The translations under genes and the position numbers were made by a program. A stretch of 33,473 nucleotides of DNA from the NCBI GenBank assembly GCA_019116525.1, contig DXBM01000025.1, positions 1 to 33,473 on the forward strand, in the 5' to 3' direction. Below, one piece after another: positions 9,212-28,029 of the stretch. Numbering within the stretch: the stretch's first letter is position 1; every line of letters starts with the position of its first letter. This DNA comes from Candidatus Olsenella pullistercoris. GTDB lineage: Bacteria > Actinomycetota > Coriobacteriia > Coriobacteriales > Atopobiaceae. Under the pieces are notes generated by a model, which was not told the origin of the DNA, made no database searches, and worked only from the letters and a program-made list of their open reading frames with translations.

Positions 9212-10362
9212 CGCGGGTTCTCCCTGAACTCGAGGTTGACGAGGCCGAGCGTGATGAGGTCCCCGTCGCGCAGCGCGCACTCGCGCACGTCAACGTCGTT
9301 GACGAGGGTGCCGTTGGTGGAGCCGAGGTCGCGGATGGACCAGTCGCGACCGTTGAAGGAGAGCTCGGCGTGACGGCGGGAGACGTTGGGGTCGCGCAGG
9401 ACGACGCCCGCCTGCGAGCGCTCGCGGCCGATCACGGTGGTCGGCGCGCTCGCGGTGTAGGTGCGTCCGGTCTGGCGGTCGATGAGCAGGCAGGATGCCG
9501 GGCGCTGCTCGGGCGCGGCGGCGTGCTGGGGCCGGGCGCCGGCCGCGGCGGCAGCGGCGGCCGCCCCTGCGGGGGCTGCCGCGGCGGCGACCTCGCCCAT
9601 GTTCACCCCACGGCGCATGTCCACGAGCGGGACGTTCTTGCGCTGCGTCTGGGGGACGGGGATGGCGCCGGGGCCCTCGCCGGGCACGACGACGGGCGCG
9701 GGGCCCGCCATCGGGACGGGCATGGGGGTGGACGCGGAGGCGGAGGCCACGGGCTCCGCGTCAACGAACTCGTCGGGGAGCACGCTCAGGCCGGCGCTCG
9801 CGCTCGGCTGCACGCCGGCGCCGCTCGGGACGGACGCGAGCGGGGAGGGCGTGGGGGCGGGCGTAGGTGCCGCGGCGGGGGGCTGCGTGGCGCGACGGCT
9901 GCCGTCGTGCGGGTGCACCTGGGCCGCGGCGCCGCCGGCGCTGGAGTTGCCCGCCAGGAAGGCGCGCTCCTCCTCGCGAAGGCGCGCGAGCGTCCCCGCG
10001 TCGACGTTCTCCGCGAAGACGGCGAACTTGCCGGACTTGAGGGACGGGTCGACCATGAAGCGCACGAGCGGGCTGCCCACGAAGGCGTAGCCCTTCTTCT
10101 GGGCCTGGGAGGTCACGAAGGAGGCGGTCTCGTAGGTGATCTGCTCGTAGAGCGGGCGCATCAGCGAGTCGTCGGAGGCGGAGACGAGCACGGTGTAGAG
10201 GGCGGGCGCCGTGTCCACGCCGTCGATCTCGTAGGTCTCGTTCTCCATCTCGCGCGCGGCGCGCTTGGCCAGCTTCTTGAACGAGAAGGGCTCGGTGTAG
10301 CCCTGGGGCGCGGCCCCAAAGACAGAGCCGATTCTTGTCTCGAAGTCACTCAGAAAGCTCAT
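9208..10362 (-). CDS. DUF3662 + FHA domain protein (FhaA-like)
   Basis: 384-residue cytoplasmic adaptor. The N-terminal DUF3662 domain (about 1-120) begins MSFLSDFETRIGSVF and contains the ALYTVLVS and GSPLVRFMVDPSLKSGKFAV stretches typical of actinobacterial FhaA. A long Ala/Pro-rich low-complexity linker (about 145-290) follows, with a C-terminal FHA domain (about 300-380) carrying VIGRERSQ, VSRRHAEL and LGSTNGTLVND. In mycobacteria FhaA binds phosphorylated partners of peptidoglycan synthesis. The start lies 17 bases inside the end of the upstream kinase gene, so the two are probably coupled. The linker is strongly biased to GCG/GCC codons. Confidence 0.92.
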   Translation of the reverse strand: MSFLSDFETRIGSVFGAAPQGYTEPFSFKKLAKRAAREMENETYEIDGVDTAPALYTVLVSASDDSLMRPLYEQITYETASFVTSQAQKKGYAFVGSPLVRFMVDPSLKSGKFAVFAENVDAGTLARLREEERAFLAGNSSAGGAAAQVHPHDGSRRATQPPAAAPTPAPTPSPLASVPSGAGVQPSASAGLSVLPDEFVDAEPVASASASTPMPVPMAGPAPVVVPGEGPGAIPVPQTQRKNVPLVDMRRGVNMGEVAAAAAPAGAAAAAAAAGARPQHAAAPEQRPASCLLIDRQTGRTYTASAPTTVIGRERSQAGVVLRDPNVSRRHAELSFNGRDWSIRDLGSTNGTLVNDVDVRECALRDGDLITLGLVNLEFRENPR

Positions 10363-12100
10363 CGTATGAACCCTCGCCTTCCTGGTCCTCGTAGAGAGGG
10401 CCTCTCAGGGCAGTAGCAACGCACATAAGCACACTCAAGAGTACCGCAAGCACGACGCTGCCCCAGTCGATCGCGGGGGATATACCGGGATTCTCCATTC
10501 TAGCTGCGAAAACCTCAGAACCCACAAGGATGGCGAGGCCAAGGGCCTGCCCGATCACGCCGGCGGCCACAGATCCTCGCAGCGCGACGGCGGATGAGGC
10601 GGCCGCGCAGCCCACGGCGCCGGCGAGCACGACCCAGGTGTCGGGCTCCGCAGCGGCGGACAGCAGTGCCTGCGCCGTCGCGTCGGGCGAGAAGCCCGCG
10701 GAGACGCTCAGGTGAAGCGTTGTGCCGAGCACGTAGCCGAGGGCGGTCGTTGCTGCCGCGGGGCCCGGGTCGAGCGCGTAGCCGGAGAGGGCGGCCCCCG
10801 CGGCGGGGGAGGGCAGGCAGCACGGAAGCAGCAGGGCGAGCGAGGACATACGCTCACGCAGTCCGCACGTCGCCCACCACACGCACGACGCGACGCCGAG
10901 CGCGCAGGCGCCAAGAGCCGCGAGGCCGCCGGGGTCGGCGCCGAGAAGGGCCACGACAAGGGCGGCAACGACGACGGGAGCCCCCAGCTGGGGAAGGGCC
11001 GCGGAGGCGAGGGCGGCGACGAGGCTCGCCACGGCGGCGGCCTCGGGCGCGAGCGCACCTATCGCCGGCGTCACGAGGCGCAGCGCGACGAAGGTGGCGA
11101 GCGCGGTCAGGGCGCGCGGGGCGATCCTGCCCGGGCTTGCGAGCCAGCGGGGGAGCCGCAGGGTGCGACCGGGGCCGCGGCGCGAGGCCCCCTCGTCCTC
11201 CTCGGCCTGCCCCACGAGCTCGCGCAGGGACTCCGCTCCCTCGCGAGCGCTCCCCAGGCCGCCGGCTAGCTCGTCAGCGAAGGCGAGCACGCTCGCGTCC
11301 CGGCCCGCGGGCGCGGGCGAGAGCTCCGCGAGCAGGGCCTCCTCGACTCCTGTGGGCATGCTGCGCGCGGGCCGCCCTGGCCCGTGGCCGATCTTTCTCA
11401 GGGACTCCTCGGGGGTTCTCGCCAGGAACGGGTTGCGGCCGGTGAGCGACTGCCAGACCACAACGGCGAGCGAGAACACGTCGGTCCGCTCGTCAACGAG
11501 CCCGCCCTCGATCTGCTCGGGCGGCATGTAGCCCACGGTCCCCCCTCGCGCGCCCCCGTAGCCGGCGGCCGAGGCGAGCGTTGCCATGCCAAAGTCCGCG
11601 AGCTTCACGGTGCCCTGGCGGTCGACCATGATGTTCGTCGGCTTGATGTCGAGGTGGAGGACCCGGTTCTCGTGCGCGAAGTCAAGCGCGCGCGCCACGG
11701 AGGAGAGCACGTGCGCGCACTCCTCGGGCGTGAGGCGGCCGCCCTCGACGCGCGCGAGGAGCTCGGCGAGGTTGAGGCCGTCAACGTACTCCATGACGAG
11801 ATACGCGTAGGCGCCGTCCGCCTCGAAGTCAAAGACGGTGACGATGTTGGGGTGCCCGAGCATGCAGGCGGTGCGCGCCTCGGCGAGGGCCTCTTGGGCC
11901 GTTGTCCCGGTCTCTGCGGCGAGGGGCATGCGCTTGATCGCGACGCGGCGCATGAGGCGCGTGTCCCAGCAGGTGCACACGGTGCCGAAGCCGCCCGTTC
12001 CGCGGCGCTCGAGCACGCGGTAGCGCCCAAGGAGCAGCTCCTGCGGCGCGCTCGCGGGGGCGTGCTCGCCCGAGCTCGTCCAGCCTGGGGTCTCGCTCAC
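10346..12100 (-). CDS. Ser/Thr protein kinase with multi-TM C-terminal half
   Basis: First gene of the operon, 584 residues. The N-terminal kinase domain (about 26-280) shows the glycine loop RRGTGGFGTV (32-41), ATP lysine in VAIK (56), catalytic HLDIKPTN (149-156), DFG (169-171) and GYMPPEQ. The catalytic loop reads HLD where most such kinases have HRD, so it lacks the arginine that usually reads activation-loop phosphorylation; the aspartate and lysine are present. After a charged linker (about 285-320) there are roughly eight to ten Ala/Leu/Val-rich hydrophobic segments (325-565), a membrane module that I do not recognise. GTG 12100 is preceded by GGAGGC. It takes the place of pknA in the cluster but at the front and with a different architecture. 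Confidence 0.88.
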   Translation of the reverse strand: MSETPGWTSSGEHAPASAPQELLLGRYRVLERRGTGGFGTVCTCWDTRLMRRVAIKRMPLAAETGTTAQEALAEARTACMLGHPNIVTVFDFEADGAYAYLVMEYVDGLNLAELLARVEGGRLTPEECAHVLSSVARALDFAHENRVLHLDIKPTNIMVDRQGTVKLADFGMATLASAAGYGGARGGTVGYMPPEQIEGGLVDERTDVFSLAVVVWQSLTGRNPFLARTPEESLRKIGHGPGRPARSMPTGVEEALLAELSPAPAGRDASVLAFADELAGGLGSAREGAESLRELVGQAEEDEGASRRGPGRTLRLPRWLASPGRIAPRALTALATFVALRLVTPAIGALAPEAAAVASLVAALASAALPQLGAPVVVAALVVALLGADPGGLAALGACALGVASCVWWATCGLRERMSSLALLLPCCLPSPAAGAALSGYALDPGPAAATTALGYVLGTTLHLSVSAGFSPDATAQALLSAAAEPDTWVVLAGAVGCAAASSAVALRGSVAAGVIGQALGLAILVGSEVFAARMENPGISPAIDWGSVVLAVLLSVLMCVATALRGPLYEDQEGEGSYDELSE

Positions 12101-12142
12101 GGCGCCTCCCTCGTTTCAGCTGCGTTCGGCCGTGCTGGGGAC

Positions 12143-12148
12143 ATTTTA
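12143..12148 (-). promoter_or_regulatory. -10 box for the kinase/FHA/wall-synthesis operon
   Basis: TAAAAT on the minus strand, 42 bases before the GTG start at 12100, is the only AT-rich hexamer in the gap. No clear -35 is visible at 16-18 bases. It lies back to back with the tRNA-Leu promoter, so the two transcripts diverge. Confidence 0.5.
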
Positions 12149-12178
12149 CCCCTTCGAGGGCGGGGCGAGAAAAACCGC

Positions 12179-12208
12179 TTGCCAGCTGGCGCGGGGATGC
12201 GCTACGAT
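12179..12208 (+). promoter_or_regulatory. Promoter of tRNA-Leu(CAG)
   Basis: -35 TTGCCA (12179-12184), an 18-base spacer and -10 TACGAT (12203-12208) place the start just before the tRNA at 12219. An A-rich tract (GCGAGAAAAACC, from 12165) immediately upstream resembles an UP element. Confidence 0.65.
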
Positions 12209-12218
12209 ATCCCAGCAC

Positions 12219-12305
12219 GCGGGCGTGGCGGAATTGGCAGACGCGTACGGTTCAGGTCCGTATGGGGGCAACTCCATGAAGGTTCAAGTCCTTTCGCCCG
12301 CACCA
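12219..12305 (+). tRNA. tRNA-Leu (anticodon CAG)
   Basis: Class II tRNA of 87 bases with an extended variable arm. The acceptor stem is GCGGGCG/CGCCCGC, the anticodon stem TACGG/CCGTA holds loop TTCAGGT with CAG, and GGTTCAAGTCC forms the T arm. Discriminator A and an encoded CCA end the gene. It reads CTG, the dominant leucine codon in this high-GC genome alongside CTC. Confidence 0.95.
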
Positions 12306-12315
12306 TGAGAGCTCA

Positions 12316-12346
12316 GGGCCTCGGCGCATGGCGCCGGGGCCCTTTT
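12316..12346 (+). terminator. Intrinsic terminator after tRNA-Leu
   Basis: GGGCC-T-CGGCGC pairs with GCGCCG-G-GGCCC around an ATG loop, and TTTT follows directly. It begins 10 bases after the tRNA. Confidence 0.85.
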
Positions 12347-12449
12347 GCGTTGCGGCAGGGGCGTGCCGGGCTTCTTGCCGCGGCCCTCTCGTCGGCAGCT
12401 CTCCCGTCACGGGCTTCTCGCCGCCGTTCCATCCTGCCGCGTCCCCGAA

Positions 12450-12522
12450 TAACACGCAGAATCAGGTAAAGTTTCATATATTCCCAGTTGAAAAAACGGA
12501 CAAACCCGGATTCTGCGTGTTA
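12450..12522 (+). repeat. 73-bp terminal-inverted-repeat element, copy 1
   Basis: The ends TAACACGCAGAATCAGG and CCGGATTCTGCGTGTTA are inverted copies with one mismatch over 17 bases, enclosing an AT-rich core. A second copy at 13750-13822 lies in opposite orientation with 66 of 73 bases identical; all seven differences are transitions in the core. AAT flanks both ends, as it does in the other copy. Similarity between the two flanks extends outward to GCTTCTCGCCG at 12413-12423. The 264-base gap 12306-12569 otherwise holds only the tRNA-Leu terminator and a small hairpin near 12530-12544. Confidence 0.8.
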
Positions 12523-12569
12523 ATTTGAACCTGGCGGTGCCAGGACGGGCGTTCTGGAACGTCGCGCCG

Positions 12570-13697
12570 CTACAGAGCGAGGTGCTCCCACGGGCGCCAC
12601 GCAAGCGCTGCCCGTGCGTGCGCGACGCCCTCTTCCCAAGGGAGTAGCGACCAGATGAGCCGGTGACGGCGCTGCTGCTCCATCGGCCCGAGAATCGTGC
12701 GCACGCCGCTCGTCGCGGAGCCGCCGTCTATTTCGTCCATCACCATCGCGGCCTCCAGCATGACGGCGTCAAGGCCGCCCGGCGCGAACAGGTCCTGCTT
12801 GGTGACGGGCAGGATAATGCATCCGAGTGCGGCAAGCTCGCGGTTGCGCCGCAGGTCGTCGAGGTACTTGTCCCGCACGTCCCGGATTGCCTCCGTTGCG
12901 TCGCCGTCCGTCGTTGCCTGCGCGATTGCGTCGAGATTCAGGTGGAGGGTGCTGTCGTAGTTGAAGCCCACGTGCGTCCCCACAATCTCGATGTCGGGCA
13001 CGCGCGACTCGCGGCAGCCGAGGGAGACGAGTTCCGGGGTCGCGCCGTGGCGCACGTTGAGCCGCACGCGCCCCAGCCCGTATCCCTGCTCGCTGGCGCT
13101 CAGGCAGGTCATGAGGGCAACGACCGCCTCCGTCGGCGACCAGGCGTTGTCGGCGGCGTGGGAGAGGTTGTGGCGCGCGATCAGCGCGTTCGGGCGGTCG
13201 CCGAGAAGGTCGAGGTAGGCGCCGAGTCGCTCGACCGAAGTCACGGGCGGCAGGTCGTAGACCACGTCACCGAGGCGCGGGCTGGCGGCGTTGCGCGCGT
13301 AGGTGCCGCAGAGCTCGTAGGCGAGAAGGGCGTGCGCCTCGGGCGTGAGCACGACGGCGAGCTCAAAGAAGAGCAGCTCGGGGCAGGGTATGGAAAGCCC
13401 ATCGCCGAGGTCGACGAAGGAGCGCTCCGGGACGCTCGTCGAGCGGACGCGGCAGTGAGCGAACGACGCCTGCAAGCGGGCCTGCGCGCTCGAGACGACA
13501 ACGTCGATTGGCTGGTCGGCAGTGGGCGCCACGTCGAGGGCCATCCGCTCGAGCGGGAGGAGCCGCGCGGTCCAGCGACGCTGGGGGCTCGGGTCGGGGG
13601 CGGGGAGGTCGATGCGCGCCTTGGGGAGCGCGCGGCCCGTGCGGCGCCAGACGCGAAGCGCGCGCAGGGCGGTCAGCCTGTCGAGGGTCAGTCGCAC
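12570..13697 (-). CDS. Uncharacterised 375-residue protein, possible DUF559/Vsr-like nuclease fold
   Basis: I do not recognise a named family. The middle carries a helix-rich segment ELLFFELAVVLTPEAHALLAYELCGTY (107-133, quoted as the pieces ELLFFELAVVL and LLAYELCGTY). The C-terminal part runs VPDIEIVGTHVGFNYDS (233-249), IRDVRDKYLDDL (271-282) and RELAALGCIILPVTKQDL (286-303). This spacing resembles the strand-Asp, charged helix and L-G-x-x-V-x-x-V-T pattern of DUF559/Vsr-type endonuclease domains, some of which occur in AbiEi-like proteins. The usual catalytic set is not clearly complete. The start is GTG with GGAGGGGG about 10 bases upstream. The gene is boxed by inverted 73-bp elements on both sides, one of them in its promoter region, which suggests an acquired single-gene cassette. 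Confidence 0.8.
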   Translation of the reverse strand: MRLTLDRLTALRALRVWRRTGRALPKARIDLPAPDPSPQRRWTARLLPLERMALDVAPTADQPIDVVVSSAQARLQASFAHCRVRSTSVPERSFVDLGDGLSIPCPELLFFELAVVLTPEAHALLAYELCGTYARNAASPRLGDVVYDLPPVTSVERLGAYLDLLGDRPNALIARHNLSHAADNAWSPTEAVVALMTCLSASEQGYGLGRVRLNVRHGATPELVSLGCRESRVPDIEIVGTHVGFNYDSTLHLNLDAIAQATTDGDATEAIRDVRDKYLDDLRRNRELAALGCIILPVTKQDLFAPGGLDAVMLEAAMVMDEIDGGSATSGVRTILGPMEQQRRHRLIWSLLPWEEGVAHARAALAWRPWEHLAL

Positions 13698-13749
13698 GGT
13701 TTGCTCGCCCCCTCCGTTGTTGTGGCGGACTCTGCTGCTAGGGCGGAAT

Positions 13750-13822
13750 TAACACGCAGAATCCGGGTTCGTCCGCTTTCTCAACTGGGGATATATAAAA
13801 TTTTACCTGATTCTGCGTGTTA
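13750..13822 (-). repeat. 73-bp terminal-inverted-repeat element, copy 2
   Basis: Inverted copy of the element at 12450-12522, with identical 17-base ends and seven transitions in the core. Matching flank GCTTCTCGCCG appears as its complement at 13846-13856, 23 bases outside the element (26 in copy 1). It lies 52 bases upstream of the GTG of the 375-residue gene, so its AT-rich core may carry that gene's promoter. Confidence 0.8.
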
Positions 13823-13885
13823 TTGGGCGACGCCAGCGGGCGGGACGGCGAGAAGCGCGCGGGCGAGAAGGGCCGCGGCCCCCGG

Positions 13886-14077
13886 CTACTCCTCCTCGTC
13901 GTCGCCGAAGAGGTCCCAGTCTCCCTCGGACTTCTCGTGGTTGAAGTAGCGCTGCTTGGTCTTGCGCTCCATGAGCAGGGCGATGGCGAGGCAGACGAAG
14001 ATGCCGCCAACGACGAGGCAGATCACGCCGGTCGGGTCGTTGAAGAGCCACGTGAAGAAATCTGTGATCGCCTGCAT
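13886..14077 (-). CDS. Small single-TM membrane protein (63 residues)
   Basis: Short protein starting MQAITDFFTWLFNDPTG. One strongly hydrophobic helix spans about 17-35 (VICLVVGGIFVCLAIALL). A basic patch, RKTKQR, comes next, and the tail ends in DLFGDDEEE. The basic patch just after the helix predicts the tail inside the cell. GGGGAGG stands 6 bases before the ATG, and the rest of the longer open frame upstream has no such site. I do not recognise a family. It diverges from serS with overlapping -10 boxes between them. Codon use matches the neighbours. Confidence 0.75.
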   Translation of the reverse strand: MQAITDFFTWLFNDPTGVICLVVGGIFVCLAIALLMERKTKQRYFNHEKSEGDWDLFGDDEEE

Positions 14078-14113
14078 GCGATGCCTCCCCTGAGCGCGCC
14101 TGAGTTCGTGCGC

Positions 14114-14127
14114 ACAAGTATATACTT
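14114..14127. promoter_or_regulatory. Palindromic divergent -10 for serS and the 63-residue gene
   Basis: CAAGTATATACTTG is a perfect 14-bp palindrome. It contains TATACT on the plus strand (14120-14125, towards serS) and TATACT on the minus strand (14116-14121, towards the small membrane protein). The two -10 boxes overlap by two bases, so only one polymerase could open the site at a time. No clear -35 hexamers are visible on either side. Confidence 0.55.
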
Positions 14128-14183
14128 GGGAGGCCGCGGCGCGTTGCCGTGGCGCACGACCGCGAGGAGCGAGGAGCCAAAAC

Positions 14184-15467
14184 ATGCTCGACATCAAGTT
14201 CGTCCGCGAGAACCCCGACGCCGTTGACAGGGCCTGCGAGTCCCGCCAGAACGCCCACTGGGACCGCGAGAAGTTCTTTGAGCTGGACGAGGAGCGCCGC
14301 TCCGTCATCTCCGAGGTCGAGAAGCTCCAGGCCGAGCGCAACTCCGTCTCCAAGGAGATCGGCCAGCTCATGCGCGAGGGCAAGCGCGAGGAGGCGGAGG
14401 CGGCCAAGCAGCGCGTCGCCGCGAACAAGGACCGCATCGCCGAGCTCGACGACAGGCGCGGCGAGGTGGAGCAGGCCCTCTTTGACCTCGTGGCCGCCAT
14501 TCCCAACATCCCGCACGAGAGTGTCCCCTACGGCAAGGACGACTCCGACAACCCCGAGGTGCGCCGCTGGGGAACGCCCCGCGAGTTTGACTTTGAGGCC
14601 AAGGCGCACTGGGACCTGGGCCCCGAGCTCGGCATCATTGACTTCGACCGCGGCGTGAAGGTCTCCGGCGCCCGCTTCTACGTGCTCGGCGGCATGGGCG
14701 CCCGCATGGAGCGCGCCCTCATCAACTTCATGGTGGACATGCACGTGAAGGCGGGCTTCAAGGAGTGGTGGATGCCCGTCATCACCAACCACGACACGCT
14801 CTTTGGCACCGGCCAGCTCCCCAAGTTCGAGGACGACCTCTACCACGTCAACCCTGACCTCTACCTCATCCCCACGGCCGAGGTCATGCTCACGAACCTC
14901 CACCGCGACGAGGTGCTCGACGCCTCCCAGCTGCCGCTGTGGTACACCGCGTTCACGCCGTGCTTCCGCGAGGAGGCGGGCTCCGCGGGCCGCGACACGC
15001 GCGGCATCATCCGCGTCCACCAGTTCGACAAGGTCGAGATGGTCAAGTTCGCCAAGCCCGAGGACTCGATGAACCAGCTCGAGAGCATGGTCGGCGAGGC
15101 CGAGGCGGTGCTCCAGGCGCTCGGCCTGCCGTACCACGTGGTGACGCTGTGCACCGGCGACATTGGCTTCTCGGCGTGCAAGTGCTACGACCTCGAGGTG
15201 TGGCTGCCCAGCTACAACGCCTACAAGGAGATCTCCTCCTGCTCCAACTGCTGGGACTTCCAGGCCCGCCGCGCCAACATTCGCTACAAGGACCCGGCCG
15301 AGTTCAAGGGCACGCGCTTCGTGCACACGCTCAACGGGTCCGGCCTTGCCGTGGGCCGCACGATGGCCGCGATCATCGAGAACTACCAGAACCCCGACGG
15401 CTCCGTGACGGTCCCCGAGGCGCTCGTCCCGTACATGGGCGGCGTTGAGGTCATCAGGCCCGCCTAG
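14184..15467 (+). CDS. serS: Seryl-tRNA synthetase
   Basis: Class II synthetase that charges tRNA-Ser; it would act on the tRNA-Ser(GCU) encoded at 28.1 kb. 427 residues, the usual length. An N-terminal antiparallel coiled coil (about 28-103) grips the long variable arm. The catalytic core shows the TAE motif (231-233), motif 2 FREEAGSAGRDTRG (261-274) and motif 3 LNGSGLAVGRTMAAIIEN (383-400). SSCSNCWDFQ (351-360), a typical serine-site segment, is intact. AGGAG lies about 9 bases before the ATG. The leader is only about 50 bases, with no room for a T-box. No stem with a T run follows; the next palindrome at 15491 looks like an operator. Confidence 0.97.
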   Translation: MLDIKFVRENPDAVDRACESRQNAHWDREKFFELDEERRSVISEVEKLQAERNSVSKEIGQLMREGKREEAEAAKQRVAANKDRIAELDDRRGEVEQALFDLVAAIPNIPHESVPYGKDDSDNPEVRRWGTPREFDFEAKAHWDLGPELGIIDFDRGVKVSGARFYVLGGMGARMERALINFMVDMHVKAGFKEWWMPVITNHDTLFGTGQLPKFEDDLYHVNPDLYLIPTAEVMLTNLHRDEVLDASQLPLWYTAFTPCFREEAGSAGRDTRGIIRVHQFDKVEMVKFAKPEDSMNQLESMVGEAEAVLQALGLPYHVVTLCTGDIGFSACKCYDLEVWLPSYNAYKEISSCSNCWDFQARRANIRYKDPAEFKGTRFVHTLNGSGLAVGRTMAAIIENYQNPDGSVTVPEALVPYMGGVEVIRPA

Positions 15468-16239: not shown

Positions 16240-17172
16240 ATGGAATACATTGAGTTCGGAACCCAGAAGGCGCAGGTATCCAAGGTCATGCTCGGCCTCA
16301 TGCGCATCGACAGCATGAGCGTCGAGGAGGTCTCCGAGCTCGTGCAGGGCGCCCTCGAGGAGGGCATCAACGCGCTCGACATCGCCGACGTCTACGGCCT
16401 CGGCAAGTGCGAGTCCATTCTTGGCGAGGTTTTCAAGGCCAACCCCGGGCTGCGCGACAAGTTCTTCCTGCAGACCAAGTTTGGCATCCGCAAGGAGGAG
16501 CCGGGCTTCACCTGGTACGACTTCTCAAAGGACTACCTCGTCAAGGCTGCCGACGCCTGCCTCGAGCGCCTTGGCGTCGACCACGTTGACTGCCTGCTTC
16601 TGCACCGCCCGGACGTCCTGATGATTGGCGAGGACGTCGCCGAGGTCATGGACGGCCTCATGGCATCGGGCAAGATCCTCGACTGGGGCGTCAGCAACCA
16701 GAACCCCGCCACCATGAACCGCATCGCCCGCTACGCCAAGACCCCGATGGTCACCACGCAGATGCAGCTCTCCTGTGCGTTTGCCCCTGCCTTTGACGCC
16801 TTCTTCAACGTCAACATGGAGAACGACGAGGCCATCATGCGCGAGGGCGGCGTCTTTGAGTACTGCCTCGAGCACGACATGGTCATCCAGACCTGGTCCG
16901 CGTTCCAGTACGGCTACTTCGGCGGCTCGTTCCTGGGGAGCGACAAGTACCCCGAGCTCAACGCTGTGCTCGAGCGCATGGCTGCGGAGCAGGGCGTCAC
17001 CCCGGCGGCCGTGGCCCTTGCGTGGATCCTGCGCTTCCCGGCCAAGATGCAGGCCGTGATCGGCACCACCAAGCTGCACCGCGTCAAGGACTCCGCCAAG
17101 GCCTGCGACGTCACCCTCACCGAGCGCGACTGGTACGAGATCTACCAGGCCGCCGGCAAGGTCATGCCGTAG
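16240..17172 (+). CDS. Aldo/keto reductase (YdhF-like)
   Basis: NAD(P)H-dependent oxidoreductase of the TIM-barrel aldo/keto reductase superfamily, 310 residues. The catalytic tetrad is visible: Asp47 and Tyr52 in ALDIADVYG, Lys80 in LQTKFGI and His122 in CLLLHRPD. GVSNQNPATMNRI and the C-terminal VIGTTKLHRVKD segment are typical of the cofactor-binding half. The second half resembles YdhF-type members; the substrate cannot be told from sequence. GAGGAG stands 7 bases before the ATG, and in-frame upstream sequence overlapping the tRNA was discarded. A hairpin at 17200-17233 separates it from the creatininase block, so it is probably not part of that operon. Confidence 0.92.
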   Translation: MEYIEFGTQKAQVSKVMLGLMRIDSMSVEEVSELVQGALEEGINALDIADVYGLGKCESILGEVFKANPGLRDKFFLQTKFGIRKEEPGFTWYDFSKDYLVKAADACLERLGVDHVDCLLLHRPDVLMIGEDVAEVMDGLMASGKILDWGVSNQNPATMNRIARYAKTPMVTTQMQLSCAFAPAFDAFFNVNMENDEAIMREGGVFEYCLEHDMVIQTWSAFQYGYFGGSFLGSDKYPELNAVLERMAAEQGVTPAAVALAWILRFPAKMQAVIGTTKLHRVKDSAKACDVTLTERDWYEIYQAAGKVMP

Positions 17173-17199
17173 GCGAGAAGCACGAGCAGGTTGAGAGGT

Positions 17200-17233
17200 G
17201 CGGTGCCCGTCACGAGCGCGTGGCGGGCACCGC
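17200..17233 (+). terminator. Stem-loop terminator after the aldo/keto reductase
   Basis: GCGGTGCCCG (17200-17209) pairs perfectly with CGGGCACCGC (17224-17233). A T-containing but not T-pure tail (GCTCTGTGTT) follows, so termination may be partial. Confidence 0.6.
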
Positions 17234-17283
17234 GCTCTGTGTTACCAGTGCGAAAACGTCCGCAAGCGCCCACACGAGCCGCC

Positions 17284-17289
17284 TACAAT
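17284..17289 (+). promoter_or_regulatory. Putative -10 box of the creatininase operon
   Basis: TACAAT lies 59 bases before the GTG at 17349. It sits inside CGCCTACAATGGC (17280-17292), a 13-mer that recurs with one change before the binding-protein gene at 21217. No convincing -35 is seen, so an activator may be involved. Confidence 0.45.
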
Positions 17290-17348
17290 GGCAGGCGTCA
17301 AGAGAGGGGGGCGCGCCCGGCGCCTCCTCGGCAAGGGAGGTCAGCACC

Positions 17349-18197
17349 GTGCGCATAGAAACCTCTACCTGGCCCGCCGTCAAGCGCTATTTTGACGAGG
17401 GCAACGACCTGATCATTCTCGCCGTCGGATCGACCGAAGAGCACGGGCGGCACAACCCTCTGGGCGTCGACACCATCGCCCCCAACTACCTGCTTGACCT
17501 CATCGAGGCGGCCGACCCGAGCATCCTCATCGCCCCGACGGTGCCCTACGGCGCCGCGGACGACCTTGTGGGCTACCCCGGCACGCTGAGCATCGGATAC
17601 CGCCTGCTCTACGAGGTGGTCGGCCGCCTGTGCGATCAGCTCTACGACTACGGCGCGCGCCGCTTCGTGCTGCTCAACGGCCACGGGCCCAACATCAAGC
17701 CGCTCTCCCAGGTGGGCGAGGAGCTCGATCGCCGCGGCTGCCGCTGCGCGCTCATGAACTGGTGGCTCATGGCCGGCGAGATCAACCCCGCTTGGAGGGG
17801 CGGCCACGGCGCGGGCGAGGAGACGAGCGCGATGCTCGCCGTCGACCCGGCGCTCGTGGACATGAGCGAGCTCGAGGGCGAGCGCGGCGAGATGGGAATT
17901 GTGAACGACGTGAGCGACGCCCTGCCGAGCGACGGCTGGAGCAACGTGCTGTACAAAGGCGTGCACGTGGGCATGCCGCGCGACGCGGTGCGCTACGCCT
18001 CCAACGGCTGGATCGGCCCCGACCACGCCAAGACGGCGAGCAAGGAGTGGGGCGATGCAATGATGCGGGGCACTGCCGACTACATCGTCGACTTTCTGCA
18101 GGAGTTTCGCCGCTGCCCGCTGCCCGAGCCGCTGCCCGTGCGCTCGGCGGGCGCCCCGGGCACGTTCGCTGAAAAGCCCGGCGCGATCCGGGCGTAG
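17349..18197 (+). CDS. Creatininase-family amidohydrolase, paralog 1
   Basis: 282-residue metal-dependent amidohydrolase of the creatininase/MftE family, whose members open cyclic amides or cleave C-N bonds. Conserved positions are present: GSTEEHGRHNPLGVD near the N-terminus (Glu, His, Asp ligands), NGHGPN and GGHGAGEETS with the family Glu. Two details depart from the common form: HNP replaces HLP, and NGHGPN replaces NGHGGN. The start is GTG with GGGAGGT 8 bases upstream. It is first of three tandem paralogs, 38 bases ahead of the next, and all share the STWP opening, a GRHNPLG block and an NGW motif near the C-terminus. The substrate is unknown; creatinine is only one possibility. Confidence 0.88.
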   Translation: MRIETSTWPAVKRYFDEGNDLIILAVGSTEEHGRHNPLGVDTIAPNYLLDLIEAADPSILIAPTVPYGAADDLVGYPGTLSIGYRLLYEVVGRLCDQLYDYGARRFVLLNGHGPNIKPLSQVGEELDRRGCRCALMNWWLMAGEINPAWRGGHGAGEETSAMLAVDPALVDMSELEGERGEMGIVNDVSDALPSDGWSNVLYKGVHVGMPRDAVRYASNGWIGPDHAKTASKEWGDAMMRGTADYIVDFLQEFRRCPLPEPLPVRSAGAPGTFAEKPGAIRA

Positions 18198-18235
18198 GGA
18201 GCCGCGCCGGGGACGGCGCGAACGACAGGGGGGCA

Positions 18236-19120
18236 ATGTTTCTCGCACGCAGCACATGGCCGCAGGTGAGGGCCTACTTCGAGAGCCATGACACCGTGCT
18301 CATGGGCGTGGGGTCAATCGAGTGCCACGGCCGCCACAACCCGCTCGGCACCGACACGATGGCCCCGGACCATCTCATGAGGCTGGTCGACGAGCGCATG
18401 CCGGAGGTGCTCATCGCGCCGACCCAGCCCTACGGCGCGACCGACGACCTCATGGGCTACCCCGGGACCATCTCCCTCGGCGTCCAGGGCCTCGTCGACG
18501 TGATGAGCGCGATCACCGGTCAGCTCTACGACTACGGCGCGCGCCGCTTCGTGTTCGTCAACGGGCACGGCGGCAACGTCAAGTCTCTCAGTACGGTGTG
18601 CATGGACCTCAACCGCCGCGGGTGTCTCGCGGCGCTCGTGAACTGGTGGAAGGTTGCCCCGCAGCTCAACGCCGAGTGGGGCGGCGGCCACGGCGACGGC
18701 ATGGAGACGAGCGCGAACCTCGCCATCGACCCCGACGCGGTCGACCTGTCCGCCTACGCGCCGGAGGGCCTGCGCAACGACCTTGGGCTCGCCGAGGGCG
18801 ACGAGGCCAACGAGGTCGCGGGTGGCCCGTTCAGGACCACCGGCTGGAGCACGGTCGAGTTCGAGGGAGTGAGCGTGGACTTCCCGCGCCGCCTCGATCG
18901 CTTCAGCTCCAACGGCTGGCTCGGCTACGGCCTGGGCGTGCCCCCCGAGACGGCAAGCGCCGAGCGTGGCCGCGCCATGCTTGAGGGCACGGCCGACTAC
19001 CTCGTCCGCTTCGTGCTCGCCCTCGAGGCGACGGCGCTGCCCGGCCCGCTCGACGACGCCCGCGAGCTGCGTCGCGCCGACGCGCACATCGAGCGCCTGC
19101 GGAAGGGCGCCCAGCGCTAG
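18236..19120 (+). CDS. Creatininase-family amidohydrolase, paralog 2
   Basis: 294 residues, starting with MFLARSTWPQVRAYF after an AGGGGGG site. Metal-site motifs are GSIECHGRHNPLGTD, VNGHGGN and GGHGDGMETS. The residue between the ligand Glu and His is Cys, where the other two copies have Glu or Gln, so the active-site edge differs. It contains an extra acidic loop (AEGDEANEVAGGPFRT) that is lacking in paralog 3. Close similarity to the genes on both sides points to local duplication, but they have clearly diverged, which suggests separate substrates or a mixed oligomer (family members form hexamers). The next gene starts 51 bases later. Confidence 0.88.
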   Translation: MFLARSTWPQVRAYFESHDTVLMGVGSIECHGRHNPLGTDTMAPDHLMRLVDERMPEVLIAPTQPYGATDDLMGYPGTISLGVQGLVDVMSAITGQLYDYGARRFVFVNGHGGNVKSLSTVCMDLNRRGCLAALVNWWKVAPQLNAEWGGGHGDGMETSANLAIDPDAVDLSAYAPEGLRNDLGLAEGDEANEVAGGPFRTTGWSTVEFEGVSVDFPRRLDRFSSNGWLGYGLGVPPETASAERGRAMLEGTADYLVRFVLALEATALPGPLDDARELRRADAHIERLRKGAQR

Positions 19121-19171
19121 CCCGCGCCCTGCTCGCCCGCCTCTCGCCAAAGCGTCAGAACGGAGAAGCCC

Positions 19172-19945
19172 ATGCGTCTCGAGAGATCAACCTGGCCCCA
19201 GGTGAGGTCGTACTTCGCCGAGCACGACACGGTGCTGCTGCTCTTTGGCTCCATCGAGCAGCATGGCCGCCACAATCCGCTCGGCACCGACCTGTTCGCG
19301 CCGCTCAAGCTTGCCGACCTGATCGAGGAGCGGCTGCCCGACCTGCTCATCGCGCCCGCGCTGCCGTTTGGCTCCACGCCGCGCTTTGCGGAGTTCCCCG
19401 GGACCGTCGACCTGGGCGACGAGCTGCTCCGTCAGGTCGCCCTGCGCGTCTGCGAGAGCCTCATGTCCCACGGGGCCCGCCACTTCGTGCTGCTCAACGG
19501 GCATGGCGGCAACAGCAAGGCCCTGGGCGCCGCCCAGCTCGAACTCGCGCGCCGAGGCTGCCGCTGCGCCGAGCTCGACTGGTGGAGGATGGTCCGTGAC
19601 ATCAGGCCCGAGTGGGCAGGGGGCCACGGCGGTGCGCAGGAGACCTCGGCCAACCTCTGCATCGACCCCTCGCTCGTGGACACGGGCGCCCTGGCGGGCG
19701 AGGGGCTCGTCGACGACTTGGGCCCGGAGCTGCCCACGACCTACTTCGACACCGTGCGCTTCAAGGGCGTTGACGTGTGCGTTCCACGCCCCACCAGCGA
19801 GTACGCCGAGAACGGCTGGATGGGCGACGACAACCCGCGCGAGGCGAGCGCCGAGTGGGGCAGGCAGATGCTCTCCGCCGTGGCGGACTGGGCGGCCGAG
19901 TTCATACCCGCGTTCGCTCGCACCCCGCTGCCCAAACCCGCGTAG
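19172..19945 (+). CDS. Creatininase-family amidohydrolase, paralog 3
   Basis: 257 residues, the shortest copy and closest in length to classical creatininase. It opens MRLERSTWPQVRSYF after GGAG. Motifs are GSIEQHGRHNPLGTD (the usual EQH), LLNGHGGN and GGHGGAQETS, so the metal site is complete. The DDLVGYPGT/DDLMGYPGT block shared by copies 1 and 2 is changed here to PRFAEFPGT, another sign of altered substrate choice. It lies 84 bases before the M42 peptidase gene on the same strand. Confidence 0.88.
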   Translation: MRLERSTWPQVRSYFAEHDTVLLLFGSIEQHGRHNPLGTDLFAPLKLADLIEERLPDLLIAPALPFGSTPRFAEFPGTVDLGDELLRQVALRVCESLMSHGARHFVLLNGHGGNSKALGAAQLELARRGCRCAELDWWRMVRDIRPEWAGGHGGAQETSANLCIDPSLVDTGALAGEGLVDDLGPELPTTYFDTVRFKGVDVCVPRPTSEYAENGWMGDDNPREASAEWGRQMLSAVADWAAEFIPAFARTPLPKPA

Positions 19946-27910: not shown

Positions 27911-27954
27911 AGGCCCTCCTGTTCGCAAGATCATGGACGTTCTTACTTGCCCCA

Positions 27955-28029
27955 CATGCCCCACTTGTACCAGGTACAAATGGGGCAACACCGTGTCGTC
28001 CCACTTGTACTTGGTACAAGTGGGACATG
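27955..28029. repeat. 75-bp nested palindrome with two TTGTAC-N3-GTACAA sites
   Basis: The 37-base left arm (27955-27991) and right arm (27993-28029) are inverted copies around C27992, with 32 of 37 positions matching and all five differences being transitions. Each arm is itself a palindrome centred on TTGTAC-N3-GTACAA (27965-27979 and 28005-28019), with centres exactly 40 bp apart. The DNA could form one long hairpin or two short ones. It lies between the tRNA-Ser terminator and the DUF5648 gene start, 45 bases from that start, so it may be a tandem operator, a folded leader or a small mobile element. Confidence 0.7.

Follow-up and report, generated by a model that had tools for sequence, protein, structure and literature searches.

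Many bacterial genomes contain small palindromic repeats, and RAYT-REPIN is the enzyme-linked palindrome class found in the literature searched. The integron attC site has AAC...GTT ends and is an imperfect palindrome, similar in length to the elements described here, beside a single gene. On the protein side, the DUF559 and MTES_1575 families are kin to Vsr and share one clan with it. The gene in RAYT-REPIN systems adjoins its own palindromes, non-autonomous copies lie outside genes, and a genome may hold several types, each tied to one gene (PMC3116915). According to a review (PMC3943268), the target on which EDxHD enzymes such as I-Bth0305I form dimers spans nearly 60 bp, which is close in size to the dyad reported below. 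Here, we report a gene walled in by two palindromic elements in the window, the whole stretch of 33,473 nucleotides analysed from Candidatus Olsenella pullistercoris (genome G000; 1.88 Mb in 72 contigs, 81.5% complete). Palindromes of this kind are associated with the family of the boxed gene, they recur with different arms beside other family members, and arm type is tied to gene lineage. The boxed system works like RAYT-REPIN, with a gene beside its own palindromes and matching copies dispersed outside genes, but is not a member: its protein is a predicted DUF559/EDxHD relative that matches no Y1/HUH transposase, and its element forms a single long dyad (about 71-83 bp) whose arms are specific to the lineage and whose centre is retained. 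It differs from integron attC sites in that its ends are not AAC/GTT in every type and its elements go with one gene family. The open-access literature searched yielded nothing on a DUF559-related gene with palindromes of its own, which is not proof that such a system is unpublished. The features of the locus are collected in Table 1.

Table 1. Features at and around the boxed gene (window positions).
Feature	Position	Strand	Remarks
Serine/threonine kinase-like gene	10346..12100	-	Conserved left neighbour; below each model's curated cut-off
tRNA-Leu	12219..12302	+	ARAGORN; left neighbour of box
Outer motif, left of box	12415..12422	+	TTCTCGCC
Palindromic element copy 1	12450..12522	+	73 bp, 3' of boxed gene; arms TAACACGCAGAATC / GATTCTGCGTGTTA
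Centre motif, copy 1	12475..12490	+	CATATATTCCCAGTTG; best-kept part across arm types
Boxed gene, 375 aa	12570..13697	-	GTG start; family related to DUF559 / EDxHD nucleases (predicted)
Palindromic element copy 2	13750..13822	-	73 bp, 5' of boxed gene
Centre motif, copy 2	13782..13797	-	TATATATCCCCAGTTG
Outer motif, right of box	13847..13854	-	GGCGAGAA on +; second one 13862-13869
serS	14184..15467	+	Conserved right neighbour

The original prediction placed two inverted 73-bp copies around a single gene of 375 residues, and both the pair and the open reading frame are present. The copies are identical at 67 of 73 positions and differ at six, not at 66 and seven as had been counted, while the description of the differences stands: all are transitions in the core, within element positions 22-53. 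As had also been seen, the 17-base ends are the same in both copies (each copy's own ends being complementary at 16/17), AAT lies on both sides in the form AAT-AACACG...GTGTT-AAT, and similarity continues outward, the arms 12422-12525 and 13747-13850 (104 nt) being 86% complementary. With at most two mismatches allowed, the 12-base end occurred five times in the window against 1.07 expected, four of these being the arms of the two copies, and a count of five was reached in none of 100 window shuffles, so that the pair is not a product of chance. Besides the tRNA, the sole Rfam match up to E 1 in 12000-14300 fell far below its gathering score, and a promoter (sigma-70 type) and terminator scan of 12400-13900 gave 0 and 0.

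A non-autonomous element family had been predicted, and the palindromes do form a dispersed family of this kind in G000, which harbours eight complete type-A copies, two boxing the gene and six elsewhere. Its type-A arms number 16 at 0-1 mismatch, all of which pair up at 71-72 bp, plus a lone site at 3 mismatches; the reversed-pattern control, allowing up to 3 mismatches, gave one. Measured from AAC to GTT, five of the eight copies are 71 bp long and three are 72 bp. An open pattern run over a contig collection of 84,980 species, in the results of which records close to the window's genome may be missing, returned 41 type-A elements in 38 stretches from six Olsenella/Atopobiaceae genomes only, and all 41 measured 71 bp from AAC to GTT though the spacer had been left free at 43-47. 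Viral contigs gave no matching stretch. Across arm types the element length is about 71-83 bp, the class II lengths coming from a scan with an upper limit of 83 bp. Type-A arms are near-fixed and the interior is variable, with a middle that tends to TATATCCNCAG; the element ends retain TA, a T-A column pair being present in 33 of 35 elements. All five elements tried for single-stranded folding, from four arm types, beat their shuffles (z -3.7 to -10.3). The elements sit in intergenic gaps with no clear promoter preference: the 64 type-A rows comprise 33 tandem, 13 convergent and 8 divergent positions, 3 at contig edges and 7 in predicted ORFs (four of the seven being look-alikes in coding DNA, counted among the 64 position and outer-motif rows), and background gaps of at least 90 bp are divided 90/33/29 between tandem, convergent and divergent. 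The outer motif TTCTCG[CG] was found within 80 bp to the left of the element in 39/64 type-A rows and its complement to the right in 34/64, at variable spacing, with 1 and 2 of 64 in the opposite orientations and a background of 61 and 54 of 702 intergenic 80-mers.

Homologs of the boxed protein are present in all 31 genomes of the genus, with 6 to 15 matches each. The window protein itself gave no direct match in Pfam (0 families at E 10), NCBIfam or PHROG, and the profile containing it had no PDB match up to E 1. Distant paralogs passed the DUF559 cut-off in 15 of the 31 genus genomes, as did five of six A3 proteins scanned, and in a profile-profile comparison (hhalign) the boxed family A2 was matched near full length to the DUF559-positive paralogs A3 (99.9%, E 9e-34, 288 columns). 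The A3 profile in turn matched PDB entries 3r3p 'Mobile intron protein' (E 1.1e-5), which we take to be I-Bth0305I, and 3hrl 'Endonuclease-Like Protein' (0.0032). The boxed protein is, on these profile comparisons, a probable distant relative of the DUF559/EDxHD nucleases. E190, D235 and D281 are invariant among 34 sequences and H252 is kept in at least 90%; together with N246-Y247 these are the conserved residues of the window protein, and E190/D235/H252/D281 would fit the E-D-x-H-D layout if the presumed mapping is correct. The boxed subfamily departs from the restriction-endonuclease-like DUF559/MTES_1575 proteins in a longer H252-D281 stretch and in having Asn (N246) for a Glu conserved in the DUF559-positive paralogs (E243 of L248). 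It departs from EDxHD homing endonucleases, which it recalls through the 3r3p match of its paralogs, in that the boxed gene was found flanked by palindromes and not in an intron and that the subfamily has no PDB match. Given the lack of a direct family match and of a PDB match, and Asn for Glu, the nuclease activity of the boxed protein is putative.

Association of gene and palindrome was scored by a fixed test in which a stem had to be paired at 12 or more of 14 positions, 55-95 bp long and within 350 bp of the gene. Such a stem accompanied all 42 genes of the genus (split L123 and contig-edge L106 and L110 included, fragments and L166 excluded), 26 of 32 other-genus genes (12 supplied as loci, 20 author-chosen from a longer list) and 7 of 33 same-locus control genes; these counts include near-identical orthologs (e.g. 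L096/L099, L107/L108, L111/L136) and are therefore not independent. A sequence-matched pair, one on each side, was found for 22/42, 7/32 and 0/33 of them respectively, and a matched pair or centred core for 35/42, 18/32 and 3/33. The seven genus genes and 14 other-genus genes that failed this last test count against our preferred reading; six of the other-genus genes had no stem at all (L192, L195-L198, L205). At element-chosen loci of 8-10 kb, 121 of 267 control genes had a stem, 2 a matched pair and 73 a pair or core. The same kind of centre is present in a nearby palindrome for 31 of the 42 genus genes, and homologs 38-78% identical are bordered on one or both sides by palindromes of similar size whose arms differ. 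For 12 of the 13 class II genes (38-46% identity) the element abuts the gene's 3' end or comes very close to it. Looking for the ends in relatives, as had been suggested, thus revealed recurrent boxing of one gene family in Olsenella and related Coriobacteriales, and the idea of the gene as mere cargo was not upheld: since the elements associate with the gene family itself, the boxed gene is more likely their partner than their passenger. Among wider paralogs (25-36% identity) a pair was seen in 2/18 only. These two, L156 and L164 (27-31% identity), have flanking palindrome pairs of their own, a hint that the arrangement extends beyond the boxed family.

The genes and their palindromes seem to evolve in matched pairs. 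Arm distance and protein distance were correlated over 27 genes (Mantel r 0.41, p 0.0001, with arms transcribed by hand from element listings) and in the 341 pairs with a protein distance above 0.25 (r 0.30), while a shared locus explained the arms less (r 0.20, p 0.012). The locus beside serS illustrates this with five arm types in nine genomes, where both elements of a box agree closely: the box carries the same arms in G000, G027 and G028 and other arms in G019, G003, G004, G012, G014 and G008. Within elements, 421 of 455 arm cells formed Watson-Crick pairs, whereas 1000 column shuffles averaged 319 and reached at most 340; this demonstrates joint change of the arms and not pairing as such, the 35 elements having been picked as palindromes. 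Six arm types were counted in the 31 genomes, with mean arm numbers of 10.3, 9.7, 12.0, 22.8, 9.3 and 5.0 where the type boxes a gene and of 0.28, 0.89, 0.48, 2.65, 0.04 and 0.00, in the same order, in the remaining genomes; reversed-pattern controls gave 0 in all six scans. Arms were found in 3/25, 7/28, 3/29, 11/26, 1/28 and 0/29 of the genomes without a gene boxed by the type, the cleanest types being AATCCGCCCTGTGGC and TTAGTGTACATAWTCC and the least clean TAACRCGCACRGTTTG. A gene was counted as matching when its box has the arms in question, so the presence of arms in gene genomes holds by construction, and because a boxed gene brings its own arms, copies beyond the box are the telling part. 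Such copies were found for 19 of 21 gene-genome pairs (A 6/6, B 2/3, D 2/2, I 5/5, class II 3/3, S 1/2; boxing arms were subtracted by hand from place lists for all pairs but G028 and G030, for which arm totals were used), the boxing arms standing alone in G022 (type B) and G019 (type S).

Some genomes run against this correspondence, having many arms and no matching intact gene found: G027 with 13 of type B, G029 with 10 of type D, and G017, G026 and G024 with 21, 14 and 12 of type I. Type-A arms moreover flank two gene lineages which are not grouped by a tree with open forks, made from proteins trimmed to 372 residues (G028 to 262). Several boxed genes with different arms may share a genome, as do four in G021. 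In G028 the boxed homolog (L123) is broken up between two frames. The type-A arm count is highest in this genome, though inflated because the end of a contig, seemingly an inverted duplicate, is duplicated. A short gene remnant lies between two matching elements at L259 (G017), where the gene was lost and the elements were kept.

Near-identical 45-bp cores are located on different contigs of one genome, and a gap between lspA- and rluD-like genes (L217-L246, names by eye; both genes placed in 26/30 loci) holds a type-A element in four genomes (G000, G013, G023, G026) and a related TAACGCGCACC element in one (G017), the rest having other stems (9), gaps of 1-5 bp (7) or longer stemless gaps (5). 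Together, the dispersed cores and the patchy presence in the gap show gain or loss of elements. The gap displays presence and absence with no exact junction, and among the loci compared, mostly chosen for bearing elements, there was neither a target-site duplication nor a base-exact empty site, although TA stands at both element ends; the empty site that the original prediction had proposed to look for was accordingly not encountered in clean form, nor was the reversed segment at the serS locus. The palindrome families occupying the lspA-rluD-like gap differ between species, and several have a CCGCAGGT-like centre; the gap is a possible insertion hotspot. Many copies are found at the same sites in several species, so movement is rare or old and turnover slow. 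Signs of concerted evolution of the cores are mixed: core similarity was 0.57 within genomes against 0.51 between them (a comparison that excluded three of the eight G000 elements, of 72 bp, and both G027 box elements and included four coding look-alikes), in G023 core similarity was the same within the genome as between genomes (0.51 and 0.51), and orthologous copies are often closer than paralogs among near species.

We consider it probable that the window harbours a nuclease-like gene to which a set of dispersed palindromes belongs, an organisation of the RAYT-REPIN kind built on an unrelated protein, to which cutting and spreading are attributed by inference. Such a two-part system would consist of the DUF559/EDxHD-related gene and a palindrome of about 73 bp whose arms are specific to the lineage and whose centre is largely common to the arm types; two copies wall in the gene, and others lie dispersed between genes. 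Binding the dyad, probably as a dimer, the protein would recognise the arms and nick or cut the element, and repair or strand transfer might then copy elements into new places or over existing copies, a copying that would keep gene and elements matching. The stronger proposal, that an EDxHD/DUF559-type nuclease multiplies its own 71-83 bp palindromes and keeps them uniform by cutting them, with several private systems per genome, as a new class independent of RAYT-REPIN, is put forward tentatively and with somewhat less than even confidence. Palindromes belonging to a second, unrelated protein family would, if true, mean that such systems arose more than once, and the boxed families would be a natural set of protein-DNA specificity pairs in which the arm code can be set against protein sequence.

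A different role for the same protein, that of a DNA-binding regulator with an inactive nuclease fold, for which the elements are operators, the scattered copies a regulon and the box a means of autoregulation, is unlikely in our judgement, but several observations agree with it: the near-fixed length, dyad and centre of the element suit a binding site, the arms follow the protein, Asn takes the place of the paralogs' conserved Glu, and many copies are retained at the same sites across species. It is opposed by the type-A positions, which do not favour promoters, by the near-identical cores at different places, which need copying, and by the class II genes, for which an element was found at the 3' end only. 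Less likely still is a selfish or defensive nuclease for which the palindromes are protected or targeted sites, in a restriction- or addiction-like manner and with no spreading unit. Restriction-like families occur among the matches of the A3 paralogs, and a genome may carry several differently armed boxes, as would fit such a function, but PADLOC recognised none of 43 family members at E 0.1.

The possibility that the elements are ordinary MITEs or REPINs moved in trans by a RAYT or IS transposase, with the gene as passenger, draws on the presence of Y1 transposases in 28 of the 31 genus genomes and on the TA kept at element ends; we regard it as very improbable, since a passenger gene would not explain the tie between arm type and gene lineage, and G013 (98% complete) carries elements of types A and B but gave no Y1 match. 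None of the 43 family members matched Y1_Tnp at E 0.1. Of four Y1 places in G000, only one has a type-A element on its contig, at a distance of about 33 kb. Stems of other sequence flank the Y1 gene at two of the places, and none passed the test at the other two; two separate gene-palindrome systems appear to exist side by side in G000. The invertible cassette or promoter switch of the original prediction has next to no likelihood left. Two near-identical inverted copies could recombine, but the gene at the serS locus has the same orientation in all nine genomes (kept relative to the serS side in 9/9 and to the kinase side in 8/9, the neighbour in G008 being unmatched), which does not support a switch, and of 17 boxes in which both elements were oriented, 10 have them opposed and 7 have them in one direction, so that boxing does not depend on inversion of the pair. 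The promoter suggested for copy 2 was not recovered either: a scan of 12400-13900 for the sigma-70 type only found 0 promoter-like sites against 0.1 by shuffles. Orientation is constant at other recurrent loci where the same neighbours were found, except at the argH-side locus, where the class I genes L132, L133 and L135 stand opposite to the class II genes (argH-like gene upstream in 13/13, argG-like gene downstream in 6/13, names by eye). This would agree with inversion; however, the three look like separate arrivals, because they belong to other gene lineages.

Some further observations concern the elements and the rest of the window. At L100 and L101 gene and element overlap at the gene's 3' end, and the last residues of the protein appear to be encoded by element sequence. 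At 27949-28029 the window contains a palindrome pair, TTGTACCAGGTACAA / TTGTACTTGGTACAA, that resembles the stems beside a Y1 gene (L263) in G000 and looks like a true REPIN. At 17100-19945, three adjacent and similar ORFs resemble, by eye, creatininase-family proteins.
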